Source: Ascidia mentula
Lineage: Eukaryota > Chordata > Ascidiacea > Phlebobranchia > Ascidiidae
Reading direction: 5' to 3'
DNA: 64,000 nucleotides
Assembly (NCBI GenBank): GCA_947561715.1
Contig: OX387197.1
Coordinates: forward strand, 19,700,266-19,764,265
Shown here: positions 47,056-64,000 of the stretch, one piece after another
How positions within the stretch are numbered: position 1 is the stretch's first letter
Layout of the letters: each line of letters begins with the position of its first letter
The notes under the pieces: model-generated
Told to the model about the DNA's origin: nothing
The model's input: only the letters and a program-made list of their open reading frames with translations
Database searches by the model: none
Position numbers and translations under genes: made by a program

Positions 47056-50000
47056 ATGAGTGTCAAACGTACGTTGCTCAGCGTCAACGTAATAGATGTG
47101 GAGAAAAGGAGAAAGCCATCAAAGCATTACGTATGCGGTTAAAAGTTACATTGAGGCCGTGTTTTAAGTAATGAGTGCTTGTTACCTGATGTGTATATCG
47201 AGTGATTGGAAAGAAAATTGAGTAAATAGCAGCTGGAGACATGCATTCATTTTTAGGTGTACGTTATGAATGTGTCGTGGAGCGATGGAAACCTGTGTCG
47301 CATTGCTCGGCGCTTCAGTTCCTTCTTCGACATGCACGTCAGTATTCAAATATAGTTTATGACATGGAAATGTACAACTTGGTTTAAGACGACAGTAACA
47401 CTACAGCTATATACAGTTGTGCATTCTGTACCGTGTAAAATGCTTGGACGATGCAATCCGTTATTACGCAGATGGCTCTACTGGATAAGTTTCCAGTGGA
47501 AGGAGGTCAGAAGGACCCCTCAAAACGTGTTATGCCGTTCCTCCCTGGAAAGCTTTTCTTCCGCCGTTCGCATACAAGAGATGTTACAATGCAGAGATTG
47601 GGAAAGATTAGTGAATACTGCCAGGTAGACTAAACATGTTTTGATAATTAGCGTTTTTTTTACTGATAGGTAACTAATTAAAAAATAATATAATTTTTAT
47701 CACAAAAATTGATATAAAAACGGTTAAATGAACATTTCCAATGCACTCCTTTTTTAATTCAAGTTATTCATCCGATCTGGCTTAAATTTAGGATCTCACA
47801 AAGCTTCCCAACAACATATCTCAGTGCGACATAATTATCAACTTCTTTCAGTCGAGTGTCGACGACGAAAAGCTAAGAAAGTAAGGTGGTCAGAACTGCA
47901 TGGCAAAAGAGTTACCCTTAATTTTTGTGATTTTTTGCAGAAACTCTGATTCGGAAACAAACGGTAAATGCGATTTCGTATATTTTGGGATGTCATCCAT
48001 GCTGTGTATTTATATTAAATCACCAACCTTTGTTCACACAGAAAAGCCTGAAATTCGGAACATTACGGGACCGATTGAGACGGAATCTTACATCGCCATC
48101 GCAGATTACAAAGCCGAAGCAAAAAACCAGATCAGTATGCACGTGGGAGAAGTGGTTGAAGTTGTAGATAAAAGCGAAACAGGTGAGATTTGCTATTTCT
48201 GCAACACCACTTATTGATGACATATTTGCCTTGCTATACAGTTGATAAGAAGTTCAAATCGACTTTCTGTTTCGCATGTAGGATGGTGGCTGGTTTGTAA
48301 TTTATACGATGCAAATGGTTTTGTTCCTGGCGCCTTCCTCGAGAAACTAGATGGAAGCCAAGATGACAACAGTCAAGAGGATGATGATGAGGACAACGAT
48401 ATAGGTAAACAAAATATGGTCCATATAGAGCTATACAATATAGGTCAAGCTAAGAATGAAAAACTCACTTAAAAGGTGGAATGTACGTGGCAAAAGTTTC
48501 GTACGATGCTACTTCCCAAGACGAACTGAGTTTTCCAGCTGGCGCTTTACTGGAGGTTGTGCAAAAGAGTTTTGACGGATGGTGGCTAGTGAAGTAAGGT
48601 TAAAATACAAGTTTAGCAATTTGAACTCTTTCCTGTTGCTTTTTGTATGTTTTCCTCTCAGATATATTTTGATTGGCCGAACATGAACAAGAAACGTTCC
48701 ACATTTTCAAGTTAGATAAACAGCAGACGAAAAATTTCGTTTTCTTTCGGCGTCTTTTTGTATATATGCGACCAAAATAAAAACACTCCGCAGAACAAGT
48801 CCCGAAGACAAAACAAACCACTTCCTGGTTTTCATTGACACTTTATAGCCGTGATTAATAACGTATTCGTGATAAGCGCATGTACCACCCTTCGAACATC
48901 TTTCGCTACCCCGTTGGTGCATGGAAACTAAAGCGAAGATAATTCTTCTGTATGCAATGCAAAATAAATAGTTGTTTCGAAACTTTACTAACATAAATCC
49001 AGTAAATAAAATTGCGACTTATAGAAACAACAACTCTGAGGGTTGGGCCCCGGCTTCTTACCTTGCAAAAACCGATAGAACAAGGTCTGCATCGACTCCA
49101 CCACCGCGATTTGGAAACGGTATTCCATATTTTATTGTTACTATATAACTGATGTTTGGGGACGGGGGAAACACCCGATCGCAAATGAAACTATAGTGAA
49201 AACTTTGACTCAACAGACGCGTACACAAAGTGCAATAGTTGGGAAACCCGGCTTAATCAACTGCTATATTTTCGATGTGCCCACTAGTTTAGTTCAAAAG
49301 TTAATTGTTTTGCGTTAAACCCTCCTGTGTTGCGAGATAGGGTTAATATGTGCATGACTTTGGCATTGTAAGCTTGATTCAACCACATGAGAAACTATTC
49401 CTTTAGGTTTACCGAACCCTGTGGCTGGGTTTGCGACACTACAGGTTAACAGAAAACTTCCACCAAAACGCAACACGATAAGTCGCAAACTGAATGCGGA
49501 AACCAGAAAGGAGGCACTGAGGAGACTCGACACTTTCGACGAAGTTACGGAGGAAGAGAGACAAAAATATGTCACATTGTTCAAACTCGACAACAAAATA
49601 GTGGACGGACTGAGCTTCAGTGCCGGGGAAGTGGTGGAGGTAAAAGGATTTGCAAATGATGTTGATTAAAATCATGCCTAGATGGCGACAAAAACTTTAA
49701 AATCCTTGGTTTTAGCAAACTTAATTATACAAATACTTTTCTCTGGTGGTATACGTATCACATTTGTTAGAGTTCATCAAGCGGGTCAAAAAATATGGAA
49801 GCGAAATATATTTCTTAGGTGATAGAGCAGTCCGACAACGGATGGTGGTTTGCTAGTCTTAATGGGAAGGAGGGTTGGGTACCAGCCAACTACCTCGGCC
49901 CCATAAAGGAAACTGATGGTTCACCAAAACAGAAAAGCCCACCTCCTCAGTCAAACCTCAAACCCTGGGAGAGATTGGCGTTAACGGAAAAAAATCAAAA

Positions 50001-51092
50001 GAAGGAGGAAGTGAATCCTCCACGAACAAAAGCGAAACCTGAACGACCAAAGGAGCCAGAAAGGCCTGATTTCAGTTCGTCGCGATTTCCCCCTGCTAGA
50101 AAAGATAAACCTCCAATAAAAAAACAGTTAAGTGCATGGACTCGATTTGCCGCCATGGCGGCCGAGAAACAATTGCCCTTCTTTTGCCGAACCGACCCAA
50201 GATATATTTTACTGTTAAATACTACTTCCCTGCAGAAATGTTTGATTTTAAAACCAAATCCTTTTACAGATTTGAAATTAAGTCAGAGATGTTGGCAGAT
50301 GTTATAAAGAATAAGAACAAACCTATTCCCTCAACCAGTTTTCCAACAAGGCCAGCTTTGGAAGAGCCCGAAGCGCAATATGTAGCTATGGTTAACTACG
50401 CAGGTATTTGTGCTTATATTTTATTACTGTGTGATCATCTCGGATTATTATTGATCGAGAGTAATTAAAGACTTTTTAAGGTTATCCGTGCCTGGAGTGT
50501 GACAAAATCTTTTCTTCATAACCCACTTACGCAAACATGTATGCAGGAAATCGCCCAAAGCGTTTGGAAGACGAGGCGTGGTTTAAAGACATCGGACGCG
50601 TTGAGGCAGAATCATCATTAAAAGCTGAAGACAAGGTTTGCCGAAAAGCTGTAATTTTTTCTCAAATTTTTTGCACAGAACAACCACCTCGTAACTCTTA
50701 TCTTTAGTGAAAATATCAGTAAAATTGGCTAAATTTGTTTCATATAAACTGCTATTGTATACCTGGGATTGCTACACTTTGTGGATAAAATAGGCACATA
50801 AATACGTCAAAGAAAACCTGTTTTAAAGGAGGGCTACTTCATTGTGCGTCGGAGCAAGTCGGGCGGAAATGCAAACCCTTACTCCTTGACTCTTTACCAT
50901 CGTCGGAACATCTTTAATTTCCACGTAAGACGAAGACCGGACGGTCGCTATGCCACTGGAGTGTTCAGTGAGGGAGAGAAAACATTCGCGAGCGTACAAG
51001 ACCTTGTACAGTTCTACCATGAGAACACTCTGGTAGTTGGTGATGAGACGAATATGGTAAAACTAAAGGGGACACCCAATGATTACTTGTAG
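47056..51092 (+). CDS. PX-SH3-SH3-SH3-SH2 adaptor related to p47phox
   Basis: Fourteen exons join in frame to 641 residues: 47056-47130, 47257-47337, 47472-47624, 47792-47880, 47941-47963, 48042-48182, 48282-48404, 48476-48593, 49025-49119, 49407-49639, 49819-50126, 50270-50403, 50547-50635 and 50829-51092. The PX domain (~1-130) has ARRFSSF at the phosphoinositide site and [10 protein letters not shown] in place of p47phox FPIEAG. SH3-1 (~156-210) follows ITGPI, exactly as in p47phox, and carries GWWLV. SH3-2 (~231-287) and SH3-3 (~353-410) also have the GWW signature and GWxPAxYL ends. A Lys/Pro-rich linker (~410-525) follows. The C-terminus is an SH2 domain (~536-634) with FIVRR (Arg ~561) and a SLP-76/BLNK-like NFHVRR strand. 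p47phox organises NADPH oxidase at membranes; the SH2 adds phosphotyrosine binding. Exon 50270 relies on a 143-base intron that fixes an otherwise broken frame. Confidence 0.85.
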
Positions 51093-52524: not shown

Positions 52525-54328
52525 TTAGTCTCTGCGCATCAGTGGCCCTGAATTAATAAAACAAGTTAGTTTAAGTGATGTTTTAGAAAAGCCAAACAAG
52601 GCAAAAAGCTGAGCAATTGATATATATAATATATATTGGTTGAAAAGTTGCACAGAATTTATTGTAAAACTTTTTCTTTACCTTCGATGCCCAGTTGATA
52701 AGGACTGCTGGTTGTAGTTGTAACCCTACAGTGTTACGATGAGATTAAAAATGAGTACAATACAAGATTTAAATCATTGAACAATTACAAGTAAAACAAC
52801 AAATTACCCCTGAGCCTCTCCAAACAACAGTCTTTCAAAATCTCCAACAGCCCAAGATTGTGGTACTTGGTCATCTGACATAAAAAAATTGATTTCAAAT
52901 ACAGTTTTTAAACGCTTTAGCACTTACAGTTACATATGGTAGTTTTTATCCCTTCTAAAGTTGTGATAACCACGTTGGCGAGATTCTTTATATACACTCT
53001 TGTGCTGTTATAGACATTAAGTCGGGAAACGTCGAAAGTGCATCGGCTTCTCGTTGTGTTAACAAACCAAGTTCTTAACTTTTCGAAAGCCCTAAAAAAA
53101 GAATAGCATGGTATAACCACTGGGTCGTAAAATAACAACAGACCTTTGTGTAAAACTATCGAACAATGATAATGAAAATATATCAACACATTATAAGAAA
53201 CATGAGAGGATTTGCAGAAAACATTTGTGGGAGTATATGGACCTTGACGTGCGACTTTTAAAGTTTAAAGCACAGTACTTACGGACACACGTCTGCAGGC
53301 CCCTTGGACCACAGGTACGCATACATAAACTCCCCAACTTCTTCCACCAAATCGTCAACGACACCATTCTCACAAATTCCACCCAGGTCGGTCTCAAGGG
53401 CGAACGGATAGTCAAGTTTAATTGCGGCGTGGTAGCAAAACGTATTGAGGAAGTTGTTTCGATCGTACTGTCTTGCTGACTGGATATTGCGCAAAAATGC
53501 GATCATGGTCTACAATACAATTTAATGCAATTTATTAGCGGTGGTCAATTGCAATAAGTAGGTAGCACATGAAATATAGGAACATACAATTAATGTATTT
53601 CATTTTGAAACATTAAACCAAGTTTGCAAAATACAAATATTATTGTGCTTAAAAAAACCTGAGATCGAATGGGATGAATATCTAACAAATCAAGGACATT
53701 TTCCCCAGCTCCCATACGACATTGATACAATTGAAGAGCGACACAACGGAAGAGACGGTTCAGCACGGATCTGGCAACAGAAAATATGCGTATATAGTTT
53801 GGGCGGCGAAAAACAATGGTATTAGCAGGCTGACCTGCAAATTTCAGGACCATTGTATCGTCTGGCGGGTGTGCGAAAAATTGCATCACATCTAAAAACC
53901 GAGTTGACTGCGGCTTTCGCCGAGCAGGATGGGAGTAGGGGCACATCTTTTTAGATAAAACAAACAAAAATCATTTGTTAATGTACTGTTTATGGGTCAC
54001 TACGAACGGCGTAGCAAAAAAGGACAAAACAGAAACCTTTACGAACTGGTCGTAATATTTTTTTGTCGTATAACGCTGAAGTCAAGTTATTGTCTAGTTT
54101 AGGAATTTTTATCTTTCGTAGTCTCATTTGTTTCAAGCTCATTTTTTTTATTGGAAGATTTTATTAATTGAAAGTTTCAGTTGCTTTGTCCTTTGTAGTG
54201 CTGCACAATTCATGACAAGCCACTTGACAAAAAAAGAATAAATATTTTGATAGCCAGAGCAGGGGGGAGTTTTAACAAAAAATATTTGTTTGACCAACCT
54301 GACACGGTACTTGATTTGATCGGTGGAT
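52525..54328 (-). other. Unique C-terminal domain of the modular protein
   Basis: After module 5 a 10-residue linker exon (54328-54299) leads to ~210 residues not resembling the modules. Cysteines appear in LPSCSAK, VFRCDAIF, PEICRS, RLFRCVAL, LYQCRMG, NTFCYHAA, GGICENG, ADVCPAFE, SRCTFD and TTICN, a helical Cys-rich pattern. Strong landmarks are YPFALETDLGG and AYLWSKGP. A TTTTSSPYQLG segment and a short PLMRRD end close the protein. I do not recognise the domain. Confidence 0.7.
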
Positions 54329-57300
54329 CTGTAACGAATACGAATTTAGTTTTTAATGCATTTAAAGAATAATGATTCAGCATAACAACTTTGTTTTACC
54401 TACGGCATTGGATACCGTATTCATCATATTAATCATTGTGTCCCGTACAGTGTCCCGAGAGATTTTTCCATTCGATCTTTCAACAAACACACAATTAAAA
54501 ATCTTTTCCTGTTTTCATTGTGAGCAATTCAGAGTTCGATACACTCACCGCGATAGCAGCGTGTAGCCCATAAACATGCGCTTAGGGCGGCCGGAAAGAC
54601 GAACCGATGTTTTCATTCGATCACGGCTGGAGTCGAATTGAACAAGTTCGAACTGAATTCGAGTGTTTAGATGCCATTTCTTCAAAAAACGTATTATTGT
54701 GAAATGAATAAGTATTTATCCTGCAATAGCAGATTGCCACACCTCATTTGTAATAATAAAATACACTTCGCAAATGGCAGGGTCAGCTGTTCCGTATATT
54801 TGAAAGACGTGAAACTGAAGTGAGAGGCTGCCGTTGTTAATCGTATCGCCAAACACTTCATAGTTGCCGGAGCCGTCCGCACCCGCAAACCCTGAAACCT
54901 TGCATACAAAATTATTGTTAGACCAAGGTACCGTATACCCAAAATTTAAGTTAACAATAACTGAACGATTTTTTCTAACTATTGATGGCTATAGCTTTAG
55001 CCAACGCTGACAAACATATTTAAATGAATTGTTTATTATATCATATATAACAGTTAAAAAATGCATTTCTTCAAATTTTTTTGCCTACATTCAACCGAAA
55101 ATCAGCAGTTTCCGACAACTCTGTGGAATCTTTGATCCAAACCAATGTTACAAAAGGGTGGATCGCAGAAACGCCTATTTCATAGCTTTCCGTTCTAAAC
55201 AAAAAAGGTCCTGATAATTTTGGTTTTGTTCTTGAACATATTTTACGCAAATAAAATTTTTATGGCAGCTTACACGTTTGTGGTATTGTACTTGAGAGAT
55301 TGGAATTGTTGTCCGCCACTGCTGAACCATACCTATATGACATAATTTGTGATCAATCCCCGGTAATTTTGATCAAAATCAGAACTAGGGAAATATACTT
55401 ATGTATATACTGTATATCTGGACGTATATCACAGAAATATTTATATCAGAGAAAAAATGGTTCATATTTAACCTTGTTTCCAAAGTCATACATATCATTG
55501 CCACCATCCCTTATGCCGTATAACCCGCCATCATATTTGTAGTTGTAGAAGCTCGGAATGCCGGATCGTACGTTGTTGCTCTCGCCAGCAATTGCACGAA
55601 GTGCAGTAGCTAAAACAAAAATATGTTCACAGAGGCAGTCTTTAAAATAAACCAGCAAAATGTAAGACCACAAAGACCTGTTATTCCCAACATTTCTGTA
55701 GTTTCAGAAGTTGTCGTGGGTTCTAAAACAAAAAACGCCATTGCTTTTGTACAATTTTCTTCTTCAAAGGATTAAAATGTTTAAAGTTGGTTGCGGACAA
55801 ATTTATAGTTTCCCTCATTTTTAAAACAACTAACTTCAGTAAAAACATTACTTACCGATTGGAAGAGTAGTAGGGCCATAAGTAGTAGTAACATTAGGAC
55901 TAGCATCCGGCAGGTCTATGGTTACTGTAGTGCCTCCGCCTTCTCGGGGACTCTGGTCAATGGTTTCTTTACAAATATATGTTACCTTGGTTGACATCTC
56001 ATACTTTTACATTCACAAGAGTATTGAGAATTATTTCTACCTTCACCAGTCAACGTGGTCAGCAAATTTTGCATTGTTGTTTCAATCTCGTATTGCGTGA
56101 TTTGACGCCCTCGTCCCAGAAAAAAACTATACACCAATAAAGTTACTAGATTTCAATACTCACAAAACTATTTCCAAAAACATACTTACCTAGGTCAATG
56201 CAACTGATGTAGTCTTGGGGTATTTTTCGGTTCAACAAACAAATATACAAATTACACTTACGAGGAAAGTAACGTGTAGCCGAATACAACATTTTTGGCA
56301 ATCCCTGTTAGCCGAGCTGTACTTTGAAGAGATCGCCTGTTCCTTATTGGTGATGAAAACGTAAAAGTTAGATTCCGATGATTCTGAACCTAAAAAATGC
56401 AAGAAGTATAAAAACAATGAAGATGAAAATATTTGTACGCCGGAGTCAATCAATCAGACACCGAATAAAGGCGATTATCGTCTTTGTTTTTCTGAAAATA
56501 TGCCAACCAGCATGCGAAAGGACGGCGGTTTCATTTTTTTTGAAACATGAAATTCGTTTGATCACGTTCAATACGCTTGGAGAGGATTGAGGAAAATTGA
56601 TGATGCATCGAGCCAAACATTTTATCACCTGATATAAGTAGAAATAGACCTCACACACGCTCGGATCATTTGCTCCGAAAGCTTGAACCCCTTTGAAGGA
56701 TAGGATATGGTTTTCACTCCGTACTGATCCGTTGAAGTCCTGTATGAATCCACTACCATCTGCTCCCAGATTCGAACGAACCTTTTTGCATGACCCAAGT
56801 AAATAAAGTTGAAGTTTTTGTAATTAAATTAACAAGCTTGGAAATCATCACCTCCAGAGTGTAGGTTTCTGGGTTTTGATCAGTTGAGTTGATGTGAAAC
56901 AAAGAAACAAACGGATGCAAAGCGAGCGTTGAAAACGTGTAGTCGGAACCACTGTGTACAACAACTTGACTTGGTTAGTCGGACGTTCGTCAAACAATTT
57001 TTAAAATTTAGAACAATTTAGTTAAACTCTGTTGAACGCCTGTTTTTAGCTTACTTGTATGTGCGATTGTATTCAGCCCAGGTCCGAATACCTTTTGCGG
57101 TGAAGTACACCTAAAAATGTAATAGCTTCATTTATTAAGCAATGTTTTAACGCTTTGTTGCACAGTTTTAAACGATCTCATAAGTCAAATGTCATGTCAA
57201 GCAAGAACTTTATAATGTCGTTTTATATATGATAACATTTGTACCTTATTTCCACCATCATACATATCATTCCCTCCGTCGTTAATTTGTTTTACAATCC

Positions 57301-60300
57301 GTGAGGTGACATCGTACCGATATCGGTAAAAGTTTGAAATGTTTTTTGTCAAATCAGCATTCCTCAGACGCCTTAGTAATGCTTGAGATTCATTGGCAAC
57401 TAATCGAAAAACAAAGTTGTACTAGTCATATCTTCAAAATCGTGCAAAAACGAGACAAAATCGTAAGAATCACAAAGAAAACTAAAAAAAAACTAAAAAA
57501 ATCCACTAACTGTTGGCGTCCATTGGGTTGCTGGTCGGTGTAGTGACGATATTTGTATCTGCAAAAGGAATTTTGACATTTTAGCTTGATATTTCATTTT
57601 AACACACTTTCTTTTAATTTGGCATAAACAACTATATGTTTGACGATTTTGATATACTATATAGTAAAAGGTAATAGGTTTCAGTCTAACACAGCACCAG
57701 TGAATATAAATGGAGGCGGTACAAAACGGAAAATATTGGTGTGGTCAACTTAGTCCTAATAATTATAGCAAATTGCAAATGTAATTTACTCCCAAATTTT
57801 AAACAGAGATTGCATACATCAAACACAAACAATTTTACCTACAACGACAGATAAATAGAACGATGTCATTACAGGAAAAATAAAAGCCGTAATTTGCAGT
57901 GCAATAGGTGTTTGATGACCAGAATCAATCTGCTGCGTGCAGCGTTGGGTTTGCGTTTAGTTACGTGTTATCTTTACAGCCAATATGAATATTTGGATTA
58001 ACTACTCGGATTCGAATCTAGTAAATTCTGTGTTGGCACATCTCTAACAGCTATCATTAGTCAAAGTGTGTATCTTGTTACATTATAAAAATACTGAACA
58101 CTTTTTAGTGATGCTAGCATGAGGTACAAGTTGCTTTCAGATAAACGATTTTTATTACCTTTCAAATCGCCCACCTACCATTGCTTATCATAACCGCCAG
58201 AAGTTGTCCCATGGTTGTTTCAAGTTCTATTTGGGAAATTCGTGTTCCTCGAGATCTTCGGCACAAAGTCACATGGGTTATATTAATGCGGTTATGTTGG
58301 AATTTAAAAGGAAACTTACTTTGATAGTAGGGTAAACCCGAAAATCACATCGTTAACCCTTCCTCTTAGTCTTGCCTCGCTTCGTAAATTTTGTCGATTA
58401 CGTGTGGGTGATAAAAACGTAAAGTTGAGATTTCTTTCCTGAATATCATATGTATCTAAATATCTTGTGAGATATTCGTAAATTAAACAGCACATTGTTC
58501 GAAATACGTGTTGGTTCCATAACATAAAGTATTCTCAATATTCTGCTATTTTTGCTGCCAGGCATATTAATTAATCAGAATTGTTCTGCTGGCACTTAAT
58601 TTTCTAAAGTGTTCATTTGAAACCGACGTTTCGTCTGCATCCGGCGAGATTTCCTCAGGGTTATGTCTACAATAATGCATCAAGCGCATAAACACTAAAA
58701 ACGCAAGAAAAACGTAAAAAAAACACAAGAAAGAGATTCGATAACATTGGCACCACTTGTATCGTCACGTATTCTCAACATGATGAAATTTCATCTGACA
58801 AACTTAACTCCGTAAATTGTAATGCGATGTTCTTTCATGAAAAAGTTCACAACATGAAAACGTTCCATAACTTTAAATATTGCTTTGTGACATATTTTTC
58901 CCGTTTAGAGTTAACACCTTACCTGCGATACGTAGAAAAATACTTCACAAACACTTGGATCGCCTGCGCCAAATACTTGAATCCCCTCGAAATGAAGTGT
59001 GTGACCACCAAGACTTATTGAACCGGAAAAGTCGTCTATGCTTCCGGAACCATCGGCACCAAGGTTAGATGTCACCTGCAATAAGTAACATTAATACATT
59101 ACGATTTGCGTGTCTTGTTCAGTACAATTAAATCACGGATACGGAGCAAAGTTTGGTTCTTCAAGAAAAAAGTTAAAATTCTGAATTCGTTAAATTTTGG
59201 TAAAGCTCCGCACATGTAACTGATGTTTAAACTTTTCACATGCAAACATGACAAAAATAAATAAATCTTGCCCGAATTGAGTAGTTGCCTGCTTCTTGCA
59301 AGGTTGGATCGAAGTGGAAAAATGCGAAAAAGGGTTGAATGGCCAGCGAGGTAAAGGAATAGTAAAATCCGCTATTACATAAGTCAAAAATTAGATAAAC
59401 ATTTACTTAAAACTACAAACAAGCACTCACTTGTATGACTTGTTGTAGGTTGCCGTTCTTTCAACCCCGTTCACAATAAAAGTCACCTTTCAAAAAATAT
59501 TTGGTTGCCTTGTTTTCAAATTCCTTTTGCATGAAATGTATATTATTTTATTGCTATTCAAAAATTATTTTGACGAACAATATTAATCACTCGGATAGAT
59601 GTATTTTACCGTATTTCCACCGTCATACATGTCACCCCCTCCGTCTGAAATCCTGTCAATCGGCGGTGAAGTGTCGTCATAGCGATATCGATAGTAGTTT
59701 GTAATGTTTCGAATTACGTTTGATCCTAAAAGTCTGTCCCGCAACAAATCTACCGTTCTGTTTTTCCTATCTGCACAGTTAAAGTAGTTTTGTTTTATGT
59801 TTGTACGTCTTATGTTGAGACAAATGGCTGAACTTAAACCAAGGTTTCTATGACTTTTTTTTCCATCAAATACAATTTTGCAAGCTCTAATCTACCCCTC
59901 AATGTATCCGTTGTCATTAGAATCAGAACACTTTCCATGGTGTTTCGTATCTCCCGATCAGATAGACGATTTTCGTCTGACCTGCCACAAAATTGAAATA
60001 CAATTTTACTGGCCCTGTATTGCTCTTTAAGTTCCAGAAAACTTTCTGTTTGAAATAATAGCACCCAAAGACATTGAACCATATTATAATGTACCTCGAT
60101 AAAAGGGTGTATCCTAAAATTGCCTTTTGAAATTCTCCGGTTAAGTTGACGTAATTTTTCATTTCACTTCTGTCGCGTTGTGGTGCTGAAAATGTTAGAT
60201 TACCGCTGGCGTTCTGTAAAGTAAACTCATTTCTCAAAGAAAAACGTTTTTTTTTTAGAGAAAGTATTTTTGGACACTTCAGTGTGTTGAAATGTACAAC

Positions 60301-63300
60301 TAGCTGTTTTTGTGGTAAACTCTACAAATCATTAGTTAGATAAATGAGCCGTACCTGGTATATATAGAAATAGACTTCGCAAACACTAGGATCACCGCCA
60401 GAATACACTTGTGCCACGTAGTAATATAAACTGTAACCCTTTTCTCCAGACACAGAGCCAGATGATGTGCGAAAGGTTCCGCTTCCGTCAGCTCCTAGGT
60501 TTGAAAAGACCTGCGAAAAAAATACGTTGCTTTTAACTATGGAAATTTAACTATGGAATGAAAAATGAAAACTTTACTTGAATAGAATAATTATTCGATT
60601 TTCTTTGGCTTTGTGTTGTTTGGTCAATGTAGAAAAATGCAGTAAATGGATGCTGAGCGACCGATGTAAACGCGTATCCAGTGTCACTAAAACAACAGTT
60701 GTAAAGTTTTTGAAATGTACACTTCTTTTTCTGTTTATTTCATTTCATCATTGTTTTTAAAAACGAACCAAAACGAACTACCTCAGCACTTACTTGTATG
60801 TTTTGTTATATTGAACAAATATTTGTTTCTTGTTCACAGTAAAGTAGACCTTGAAACATAAACTCATAACATTATTTGCCTTTATACATTAATGTAAAAA
60901 CACGTATCCAGTTCGTATACATAACGCGCATTTACATTTCCTTGATTCTTACCTTGTTTCCGTTGTCATACATATCATCTCCACCGTCAGCGATCATGTT
61001 GTTGCTCGAGGAATCATATTTATACAAATGGAAATTTGTAATTGATAGCATTAGGTTTTGATTGATCACGCGCTGTCGAATGTCATTTGTCTTTTCAAGC
61101 ACTGCGGTGTAATAACACAATGGTTGGTAACAGGTCGCCGAGGAGGTTTGTTGCTAAAACACTTGAAATAGGGCAACATGTTTGTTTCACTATGGAGTCT
61201 TGCACTACCAAATATATACCACATAAGTTTCTAATAAAATCAAAAGTGGCTTTGGTAAAGCATTGGGTCAATGCAACAAAATTTGTCTTGTAAATGATAC
61301 ACTGTCTTATCGAATGTATGCAGTGATTCACTTAAACCAAACTTGGCTTGTGGTCAATATAATCTTTTTCAGGTTTGAGAAACTAAATTACTTTCCAAGC
61401 AGTTATGCTGTTTGAGAATCATTTATCAATAAACCATGAGTGTTACTGACTTCGGTCATGACGTAGCGTTACTTCTCGAGATGAAGTTGTGTAAGTCATT
61501 GTTTGTGTTGCAGACGTTACACTCGGCATAGTTGTTGTACTGACAGTAGCTGTCGAATCCACAGTTGTTGTTTCTACATAATACCGAAAAAATAAGAAAC
61601 ATTGGCAATATCCAATCATCTAATCATGTCAATAAGAACGTGTCTACTAAACAAAAGATTTATGCAAAAATTTTTGTCAAAATCAAACGTATTTGTTGTG
61701 TGAGTTCTATCCGGGGTAGCAAGCATTGGGTTATATACCAAAAAATTAAAACATATGATGTTTTCTAAACTGAGTGATTATAGTTAAACACAAAGATATT
61801 CTTGTAACTTTTACGAAATCTCACTGACTCTCTAGATCCACTGGCATGGAGGTCCGTGCAGATGCGTTAGTTGTGGTTTTCAATGTGTTTGCAATAATTT
61901 ATGCAAAAGACAGATACGAACTATCATCACAAAAGAACTATTGTGTTTTACAATAAACACCAAATCTTCCAGACGTATAATGACATCGAAGGGAAGCGGA
62001 GATAAAAACCTACTTTTTGGAGCGCGATACGAAAAAAAAACCTCGACATATAGCGCATGGATTTTTGACCAGCTAGTGCCAGGATAGGGTGCATAAAGTC
62101 AAGTGCAAGACCATAAACTACCAAGATTAACAGTTTTGTAAGACTGCTTTACCTACGTATCCAAACAACGCATGCAATGCAGTTATTTGTAATCTGCATG
62201 CTGAGATCTGTACAATTTTGCTCTTATAACTGTACCACAGCATTTTAGCAGTGGCCATGCAAACTGTGTTCACATAGGCGGCAAACACCTTATCCAAGAT
62301 GATAGGACAATTGCATTTACTTGTCAATGTCAAGACGCACGTCGCTTATAGGCATGCGGTCGCAGCAAACAAGTTTCCCTGTGTGCCGCCGAAAACGCCT
62401 CAGGGCAAGGCATCTATAATTCCATTTATGTGCGTGCGTGGGAGGCCAAAATTTCCGCTGTTTTTCCACGTTTTAAGTTAGAACACCGGACGTTGTTTCA
62501 TAACTACTTACCTTCCCCTGATAAGACATAAAAGAATCTGCGCATGACGGCGTTCAATTCTTCGTCAGTTATGACGTCATCGGGGTGTCTGCGAATGTTT
62601 GAAACAGCGTATATGTCTTTGAACAGTGGATTTGAGAAAAGTGGAAAATTGTTATAATTTCAGGCATATAGAACTTCGCCTTCATATGGATGCTTTACCT
62701 AGAAAGCAGTGTGTAACCGAATATGGAAGGTGGGCCGTTCCCAGCTTGAACAGTTGCGTTGTTTCTAAAGATATTCCTGTTGCGCGACTTGATTTCCAAA
62801 TCTATTTCTGTTGCTTGGTTTCCCTGCATGAGACAATAAACTTGACCAATATTGAAAAATCATGTGCAAGTTACATCACCTGTTCGGAAAGATAAAAAAA
62901 GATTTCGCAGACGGTTGCATCGTAGGCGTCGTAAACTTGAACTGCTTTGTATGACAACCTAAAGTTGTTGCTGCTTATTTGTCCTGACGAGTTTTTCATC
63001 CTTCCCCTTCCATCAGCTCCAAGGTTTGAAACAACCTGCAGATAAATAGATTACTTCAAATAACACTAATATGTTTCGATGATTTGTTACTGCGTTGATT
63101 CAAAGATAAATTTTATACAGGGAGGAGACCCCGCACGCACTGAGGAAAAAGTTGTCTGGTAGGTTAACACGAGGGGATGCGTGTAAACATATGGGCGAGT
63201 TACCGGGTCTCCCTTTTCTCCTGAATAAGCAGAAAATTCAAAACGATGTAATCTCGACACGGTACTGTTTGTCGATAACTGGGCATTGGATTTGGTAATA

Positions 63301-64000
63301 AAAGGACTATGAGAACATACAATGGCTTACATAATAATTTGTTATATAAATACAATTTGCAAATTAACAGTTATTTCTTTATGGCTTATCACATGTTGTT
63401 TTTACCTCAATGGAAAAATTTCTCAGACCAGCACCTTCAGGCCTTGATTCGATGTTAAACAAGGCAGTAAACGGATGGGTTGCGAAAGACAAAAACCTAT
63501 ACCCTGACGACCTGCAATCAAACATATATTATTTTGCACTGTGCAAACTGCAATTACGGCTAACTTACATGTATGTGCGATTGTAAACCACCTGAGTCAA
63601 ATTACGTCCATCCACGCTAAAGTACACCTGTAGTAAAAAGTTTCTTTCTTCAGTTTTTTTTTTACTCTCGCAATCGACATGACATTACAATATTGGAGGT
63701 TAAAAAGTTAGCGATAGGAAGTGTAAGTACAGCTATTTACCGAGTTTCCTCCGTCATACATGTCGTTCCCGCCGTCGCTAATAGAAGTTTGCACATCTCC
63801 TGTTCGGTAAACGTAAAAGTGAAAGTTTGCAATGAGGTCACTTAAGCTGGCTTCACTCAATCTTTCCATGAGGACATCCCGTGACATCGAGGCTAAAAAA
63901 TCATGTAAACATAAAGTTTGCACTAAAACTGTGTAATGTTTGTCGCAAACAAAAAACAAAATACCGAAATAAGGGGTTTCTGCAGTGACAGCGACCGATG
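52525..64000 (-). CDS. Large modular extracellular protein with five tandem copies of an unrecognised module; 5' end outside window
   Basis: All exons from the window edge to a TAA at 52525-52527 join in frame to 1488 residues. Order: partial Thr/Ser-type linker exon 64000-63965; module 1; linker 61573-61451; module 2; module 3; linker 57558-57511; module 4; linkers 55966-55856 and 55722-55678; module 5; then the C-terminal exons 54328-54299, 53946-53835, 53770-53659, 53509-53283, 53091-52928, 52874-52808, 52725-52682 and 52547-52525. Linkers are rich in Thr and Ser (for example TTTVDSTATVSTTT), typical of O-glycosylated stalks. Modules contain many N-x-S/T sites and one or two cysteines each. 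No membrane helix is visible at the C-terminus, so it is probably secreted. Function unknown. The signal peptide should lie upstream of the window. Confidence 0.85.
54400..55609 (-). repeat. Module 5 of the repeated protein (213 aa)
   Basis: Exons: a 55609-55473, b 55332-55274, c 55194-55089, d 54898-54743, e 54652-54549, f 54476-54400. Landmarks are YNYKYD and IRDGGNDMYDFGNK in a, VWFSSGG and YNTTNV in b, IHPFVTLVWI in c, GADGSG and DPAICEVYF in d, MGYTLLSR in e and ISRDTVRDTMINMM in f. It is shorter and more diverged than modules 2-4, with a short exon e. Confidence 0.8.
56041..57399 (-). repeat. Module 4 of the repeated protein (224 aa)
   Basis: Exons: a 57399-57245, b 57110-57055, c 56951-56852, d 56781-56629, e 56383-56262, f 56126-56041. 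Landmarks are YRYRYD and INDGGNDMYDGGNK in a, YFTAKG and YNRTY in b, LHPFVSLFHI in c, SNLGADGSG and DPSVCEVYFYLYQ in d, FGYTLLSS in e and ITQYEIETTMQNLL in f. It is close to module 3 in sequence, suggesting a relatively recent duplication. Confidence 0.85.
58179..59770 (-). repeat. Module 3 of the repeated protein (222 aa)
   Basis: Exons: a 59770-59610, b 59486-59431, c 59371-59272, d 59075-58923, e 58438-58320, f 58255-58179. Landmarks are YRYRYD and ISDGGGDMYDGGNT in a, FIVNG and YNKSY in b, IQPFFAFFHF in c, SNLGADGSG and DPSVCEVFFYVSQ in d, FGFTLLSK in e and ISQIELETTMGQLL in f. Exon c appears to use a GC donor. The d-e intron contains a Penelope-like fragment (58622-58665). No linker exon separates it from module 2. 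Confidence 0.85.
58622..58665 (-). mobile_element. Penelope-like terminal fragment with hammerhead-like signature
   Basis: On the minus strand CTGAGGA, a TCTCGCCGGATGCAGAC segment and GAAACGTCGG match the 3' end of the Penelope-like element at 44129-44162, with a handful of differences. It lies inside the d-e intron of module 3. Only the terminal signature is recognisable here, so it is a short insertion or relic. Confidence 0.6.
59896..61101 (-). repeat. Module 2 of the repeated protein (225 aa)
   Basis: Exons: a 61101-60953, b 60849-60794, c 60686-60578, d 60510-60355, e 60213-60095, f 59981-59896. Landmarks are IADGGDDMYDNGNK in a, YFTVNK and YNKTY in b, QHPFTAFFYI in c, SNLGADGSG and DPSVCEVYFYIYQ in d, LGYTLLSR in e and LSDREIRNTMESVL in f. 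Same phase pattern as module 1. The f exon donor was chosen at AGGG|GTAGAT because it alone keeps frame with module 3. Confidence 0.85.
62512..63892 (-). repeat. Module 1 of the repeated protein (225 aa)
   Basis: Six exons: a 63892-63741, b 63627-63569, c 63511-63406, d 63035-62880, e 62823-62699, f 62588-62512. Exon a ends with ISDGGNDMYDGGNS, b has YFSVDG and YNRTY, c has THPFTALFNI, d has SNLGADGRGR and ATVCEIFFYL, e ends FGYTLLSR, and f has ITDEELNAVMRRF. Phases are 1-0, 0-2, 2-0, 0-0, 0-2 and 2-1. Exons d and e are the most diverged from the other copies. Confidence 0.85.

Follow-up and report, generated by a model that had tools for sequence, protein, structure and literature searches.

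An undescribed six-exon module repeated in a putatively extracellular protein gene of the ascidian Ascidia mentula has relatives in bacteria and viruses

What does a gene encode when it consists largely of one unnamed domain, split by introns in the same way in every copy, and where else does such a domain occur? The question arises from a stretch of 64,000 nucleotides of Ascidia mentula (GenBank assembly GCA_947561715.1, contig OX387197.1, C1 in the coordinates below, forward-strand positions 19,700,266 to 19,764,265; the whole stretch is referred to here as the window), in the last part of which a preliminary description, made from the sequence alone, had noted a repeated module without an obvious relative. 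Mitochondrial COX1 points to an ascidian source: it contains five in-frame TGA codons, and the ascidian code turns 16 AGA/AGG codons into glycine, 13 of which, counted by eye, align with glycines in a solved mammalian COX1. We find that the module is a domain undescribed in the libraries searched, that its six-exon cassette, with phase 1 introns at both borders, has been multiplied in the genome, partly via tandem duplication, and that, judged by their sequences, ascidian, bacterial, and viral proteins carry one homologous domain.

Five homologous modules of 221-224 residues (M1 to M5, rebuilt from DNA) lie on the minus strand between positions 63892 and 54400, and all five are encoded by six exons with intron phases 1-0, 0-2, 2-0, 0-0, 0-2, and 2-1 in every copy (Table 1). 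Splicing was inferred from open frames, splice signals, and homology; acceptors are AG in 30 of 30 module exons and donors GT in 29, the sole remaining donor being GC (GCAAGA) at 59272, in exon 3 of M3. An alternative donor at 56041, in place of 56047, would leave the phase of the last exon of M4 unchanged. The other four modules are 53, 42, 40, and 35% identical to M4 (M5 being lowest), 41 columns are invariant across the five aligned modules, and each contains one Cys. A whole-genome search with M4 alone as query recovered exon 4 of M3, M2, M1, and M5 with E values of 3.4e-17, 4.0e-10, 7.4e-10, and 5.5e-4, respectively, so that the likeness of the modules exceeds chance. The rebuilt exons and splice signals bear out what the preliminary description had claimed of the size of the module (about 220 residues), its copy number (at least five), its six exons, and their phases. 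The landmark strings it listed do occur in fixed order, but their letters vary from copy to copy: only M3 and M4 have YRYRYD and ETTM, and only M1 has HPFxALF in exact form.

The module was also said to fit no named domain, and this held in Pfam, NCBIfam, PHROGs, and PDB. Pfam contained no credible match for M1, M2, M4, or M5 (four of the five modules were scanned, M3 not among them), and NCBIfam and PDB sequences contained none for one ascidian module; none of the 28 bacterial sequences in alignment A2 had a Pfam or NCBIfam match at E 0.01, and the module proteins of loci L054, L055, L056, L057, and L042 were without PHROGs match at E 0.001. Candidates that were considered and rejected as weak and under cut-off, in Pfam and NCBIfam scans of four proteins each, include FTHFS (E 0.064), DUF7244 (0.13), Lmo2445-like (0.024), and DUF3104 (0.042) in Pfam, and formate-tetrahydrofolate ligase in NCBIfam (E 0.045, under cut-off), and PDB sequence matches were at chance level (best E 0.96 in one search, 0.023 in another). 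In the open-licence texts searched, the motif strings of the module were not found, and the matches listed for ascidian gene transfer or gene clusters contained nothing on the family. Symmetric 1-1 exon-shuffled extracellular modules are a known class, and the ascidian module resembles them in its same-phase border introns and tandem copies; it differs from them in being split by five further introns of fixed phase and in having no named Pfam match.

Relatives were found outside animals. A scan of prokaryote species genomes revealed 33 loci in seven bacterial phyla (Bacteroidota, Verrucomicrobiota, Planctomycetota, Neomarinimicrobiota, Zixiibacteriota, Acidobacteriota, and Cyanobacteriota, the last represented by Microseira), and among viral contigs the ascidian profile picked out 7 loci and a phage-derived one 46, several of the contigs behind the latter figure being recurrent or apparently identical. 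Profile-profile comparison aligned ascidian and bacterial modules over 199 columns (probability 99.4, E 2.6e-21). The bacterial domain, which is likewise unnamed, occurs in giant, mostly multidomain proteins (e.g. L042 of Zixiibacteriota, L020 of Fulvivirga, and L022 of Reichenbachiella) and is homologous over its full length with the landmarks in the same order, but unlike the ascidian module it is encoded in a continuous reading frame, at one copy per genome in five of the six genomes searched and two in the sixth. The 11 bacterial host proteins scanned (of the 33 loci) contained ASH/HYDIN-type Ig-like domains (8), subtilase (2), and TSP3 repeats (1), several of them running past their contig ends; a type IX secretion system (T9SS) sorting tail scored above cut-off in 5 of the 11 and below it in a sixth. 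At two loci (L020:2832-9038 and L034:2814-6962) the host protein combines the module with a subtilase protease and with a T9SS sorting tail.

The viral members are unnamed proteins, many of about 290 residues (BFVD A0A6J5NIC1, template modelling (TM) score 0.89; L057, L083, L087), that contain the same domain, in contrast to the ascidian protein mostly as one module per protein among those examined; shorter phage proteins have a long insertion following the DGG motif, unlike the ascidian module. Several viral contigs carry tailed-phage genes. When 50,697 phage records were searched by tblastn, with a single phage module and a single bacterial module as queries, nothing was returned at E 1e-5, which speaks against a wide presence in deposited phage genomes. 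At L103:902-3666 and L104:902-3666, two adjoining viral genes each contain the DGG and GADG strings of the module.

An AlphaFold model of a bacterial member, calculated with 28 sequences, has a mean predicted local distance difference test (pLDDT) of 93.4 and a predicted TM score of 0.92, and consists of a helix, beta strands, and a second helix. Foldseek found no PDB match under E 0.001 and no close solved fold; its top PDB match, CERT START (E 4.0e-3), has a TM-score of 0.12 and is meaningless. Among predicted viral proteins it returned three matches (E 5.7e-16, 8.6e-15, and 1.1e-9), two of them from uncultured Caudovirales and none of named function.

The reach of the module in the preliminary description proved too small, not only with respect to these relatives but also within the ascidian genome itself. 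Across the 195.8 Mb assembly, a 24-base pattern of DGGxDMYD/F-type codons had 76 matches, of which 54 were exact and 22 had one mismatch (reversed control 0), and a protein search gave at least 169 matches (150 of 292 candidates scored). Merged by position, these put the number of first-exon places at no fewer than 103, spread over seven contigs; the figure is a minimum for similar places and may include, among those with one mismatch, some that are not functional modules. A further 10 were found via later exons only. At 14 loci beyond the window, acceptors of the expected phase were present in 12/13, 7/7, 24/24, 27/27, 4/4, and 4/4 cases for exons 1 to 6, and donors in 33/33, 7/7, 15/15, 32/33, 18/18, and 4/4; these counts are restricted to matches within six residues of the profile end, include a locus (L009) that repeats some M1 exons and others that overlap, and come from a 15-base splice search that picks up other phases too (e.g. 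13/33 exon-1 donors). In an array at C2:5.16-5.21M, there are multi-module tandem copies, such as one pair that is 90.5% identical over 3990 bases and another that is 94.6% identical over 1038 bases. The recurrence of the phases at other loci and these 90-95% identical tandem copies agree with the earlier suggestion that symmetric 1-1 cassettes can be gained or lost without breaking the frame.

Several features of the expanded family were observed in passing. A single array at C2:5165545-5207056 (L012-L016) contains 18 first-exon places; C1:23.034-23.047M and 23.102-23.116M have a near-identical match pattern, probably because a large duplication happened recently or haplotypes were left uncollapsed; and two single-module stretches at C2:12.34-12.36M (L017-L018) are 98.8% identical over 240 compared bases. 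A hydrophobic stretch seen by eye at about L018:520-600, upstream of one module, is a candidate membrane anchor.

Between the modules of the window gene fit four linker exons, for the most part Thr-rich and, as had been proposed, all symmetric 1-1; a linker was looked for at the M2-M3 junction and none was found, the two modules abutting. The Cys-bearing region that follows M5 is distinct from the modules and was without match in a Pfam scan. Its two genomic relatives, at C1:18.512M and C67:7.932M, both lie on the same strand as modules and downstream of them, and we therefore take the region to be the normal C-terminus of such module genes. The resulting model of the window gene comprises 1479 residues with 31 N-glycosylation sequons; it is one residue short at the first C-terminal donor (the exon was ended at 53662, three bases before it), and it ends with two small exons (52718-52681 and 52548-52523) without splice consensus, the 3' end of the gene being provisional. 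In the other direction, the preliminary description had the gene continuing upstream of position 64000, and the array does continue, with a sixth, diverged module just past the window edge (C1:19764809-19765961) whose exon-4 region has no clean single-frame reading, owing either to decay or to a different splice. A cluster of further modules on the opposite (plus) strand, C1:19771694-19951795 (about 180 kb), starts about 6 kb from the sixth module. A sister gene at C1:18.504-18.512M has a signal-peptide-like first exon (judged by eye) whose best donor is in phase 1, followed by three modules, the third resting on a weak first-exon match (E 0.009), and the C-terminal region.

Table 1. Window positions of the modules, linker exons, and C-terminal region assigned to the gene.
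Feature	Span	Strand	Exons	Remarks
M1	62512..63892	-	63892-63741, 63627-63569, 63511-63406, 63035-62880, 62823-62699, 62588-62512	
Thr-rich linker exon	61451..61573	-		phase 1-1
M2	59896..61101	-	61101-60953, 60849-60794, 60686-60578, 60510-60355, 60213-60095, 59981-59896	
M3	58179..59770	-	59770-59610, 59486-59431, 59371-59272, 59075-58923, 58438-58320, 58255-58179	GC donor at 59371-59272
Linker exon	57511..57558	-		phase 1-1
M4	56047..57399	-	57399-57245, 57110-57055, 56951-56852, 56781-56629, 56389-56262, 56126-56047	
Thr/Pro-containing linker exon	55856..55966	-		phase 1-1
Thr-rich linker exon	55678..55722	-		phase 1-1, weak donor gtcttt
M5	54400..55609	-	55609-55473, 55332-55274, 55194-55089, 54898-54743, 54679-54549, 54476-54400	
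Cys-bearing C-terminal region	52808..53891	-	53891-53659, 53509-53283, 53091-52928, 52874-52808	exon limits approximate

Elsewhere in the window, the plus strand has exons at 49819-51092 that encode an SH2 domain as well as part of an SH3 domain and belong to a separate, adaptor-like gene.

What, then, might the protein do? The reading that we favour, at about an even chance, is that the window gene encodes a secreted, multivalent surface-binding protein built of the undescribed modules. The window would contain the 3' part of the gene, and the protein would be a chain of strand-rich (beta-sandwich-like) modules with short Thr-rich linkers and a conserved Cys-bearing C-terminal end. The modules would bind surfaces, either a glycan or some other surface ligand, probably through a metal-dependent site composed of the loops DGGxDMYDxGN, GADGxG, and DP, and the biological role would most likely be an adhesive one, within tunic, mucus, or extracellular matrix. 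Secretion, ligand and metal binding, and an adhesive role are each something that we infer. The extracellular location given in the preliminary description is supported, though not proved, by the signal-like exon of the sister gene, the sequons, the Thr-rich linkers, and the bacterial secretion tails. Surface binding is suggested by the presence of the domain in giant secreted bacterial proteins and in phage proteins, several of which are encoded among tail-fibre genes, and surface exposure may be the common thread of these relatives. When proteins adjoining viral modules were scanned on 10 contigs, tail or tail-fibre PHROG matches were found beside or near the module gene for 6 of 10 neighbour proteins, on 4 of 6 contigs, in the first set; on a fifth contig (L054) the module gene lies between terminase and portal.

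A functional site is likewise suggested by the strict conservation of Asp, Gly, and Asn in the loops across the three groups. An alignment of 84 rows (32 ascidian, 17 viral, and 35 bacterial) has 16 columns in which one and the same residue reaches at least 85% in all three groups. These are an I ahead of the motif, the motif positions D-G-G-D-M-Y-D-G-N, a Tyr, the four residues G-A-D-G, and P in DP, such that DGGxDMYDxGN, GADxxG, and this P are common to ascidian, bacterial, and viral rows. In bacteria, GADxxG and the P are independent of the motif-based search. We regard the Gly/Asp loops as a putative metal-dependent site for a glycan or other surface ligand. The position after DPxV is Cys in 21/32 ascidian and 13/17 viral rows, and Asn in 35/35 bacterial rows.

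A number of points weigh against this reading. For the window gene itself, neither a 5' end nor a signal peptide of its own was found. The 10 neighbour proteins of the first set were chosen partly for their fibre-like look, and in a second set of 6 neighbours on 4 contigs none had a tail match (two, the terminase and portal of L054, matched head and packaging families, one DNA polymerase, one a family of unknown function, and two were without match); at L057 DNA polymerase is beside the module, a neighbourhood that does not fit surface exposure. The conservation is partly a matter of ascertainment, given that the bacterial loci were found via the DGG motif and some viral loci via DGG/GADG patterns, and the D of DP falls under 85% in at least one group. 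The fold model, moreover, is that of a bacterial relative and not of the spliced ascidian module, the DGG loop is its weakest part (pLDDT blocks 75 and 74), and a phage model from four sequences was poor (pLDDT 58.8).

The main rival, which we consider possible but tentative, is that the clustered, varying modules form a recognition repertoire encoded in the germline, serving immunity or allorecognition, that binds microbial or non-self surfaces. Large clusters, recent duplications, and the location of some relatives in phage tail-fibre neighbourhoods are what such a repertoire would lead one to expect, but selection on close copies outside the window is purifying: the ratio of nonsynonymous to synonymous substitution rates (dN/dS) ranges from 0 to 0.46 with a median of 0.20 in the 21 of 22 close pairs for which it is defined, values that are whole-exon averages over non-independent pairs, all beyond the window array, whose own copies are too diverged. 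The same selection, together with the Thr-rich linkers and the 31 sequons in the 1479-residue model, would suit a protein with nothing but a structural part to play, as spacer or matrix, whose modules bind no ligand and are repeated for length and glycosylation alone. We nevertheless think this unlikely, as the loop conserved across ascidian, viral, and bacterial rows suggests a functional site and the six bacterial genomes searched have only one or two copies each. It is highly improbable that the module is an enzyme or enzyme remnant, e.g. a glycosidase-like domain, since GH92 mannosidase chains, though recurrent in Foldseek with a weak, purely structural beta-sandwich likeness (best labelled row E 6.9e-3, probability 0.93), reach TM-scores of at most 0.40 in the best 50 of 900 rows and no E <0.001, while the module has no GH92 sequence match and the GH92 model is not among the Pfam families listed for the ascidian C-terminal region or the 11 bacterial proteins (for L042, the best 25 of 33 families).

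How an ascidian, bacteria, and viruses came to share the domain was approached with an unrooted tree of 85 rows (M1 twice). Rows with DGG matches in subtilase stretches (L020_0, L034_0), short rows or rows with an unknown residue (L023_2, L035_0, L052_0), and a copy of L058 (L059) were dropped from alignments and tree, and 5 of 33 first-exon modules beyond the window, having no fourth-exon match, were not entered in the tree. All ascidian rows fall into a single clade (support 0.67); the 35 bacterial and two viral rows are split from the ascidian and the other 15 viral rows with a support of 0.998, and these 15 form a clade (0.935). As the tree is unrooted and contains no other eukaryote, neither transfer nor its direction follows from it. 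Bacterial contamination was rejected as the source, because introns split the copies, which sit within a contig of 27.9 Mb. One scenario, which we hold to be rather doubtful, is that ascidians, or animals ancestral to them, acquired an unnamed surface-binding domain that circulates among bacteria and tailed phages, that five introns and the phase-1 borders were added to it, and that it was then amplified to at least 100 copies as a repertoire for multivalent binding to microbial or tunic surfaces.

A family without match in the versions of Pfam, NCBIfam, and PHROGs searched thus spans bacterial viruses, seven bacterial phyla, and a chordate. Its fixed six-exon cassette is a clean case of module duplication through symmetric introns. 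Naming the domain would improve the annotation of giant bacterial surface proteins, of phage fibre-region proteins, and of a large clustered ascidian gene family, and would yield a testable prediction of what such proteins bind. We take it as probable that the domain is a surface-binding module of wide occurrence, multiplied about a hundredfold in this ascidian.

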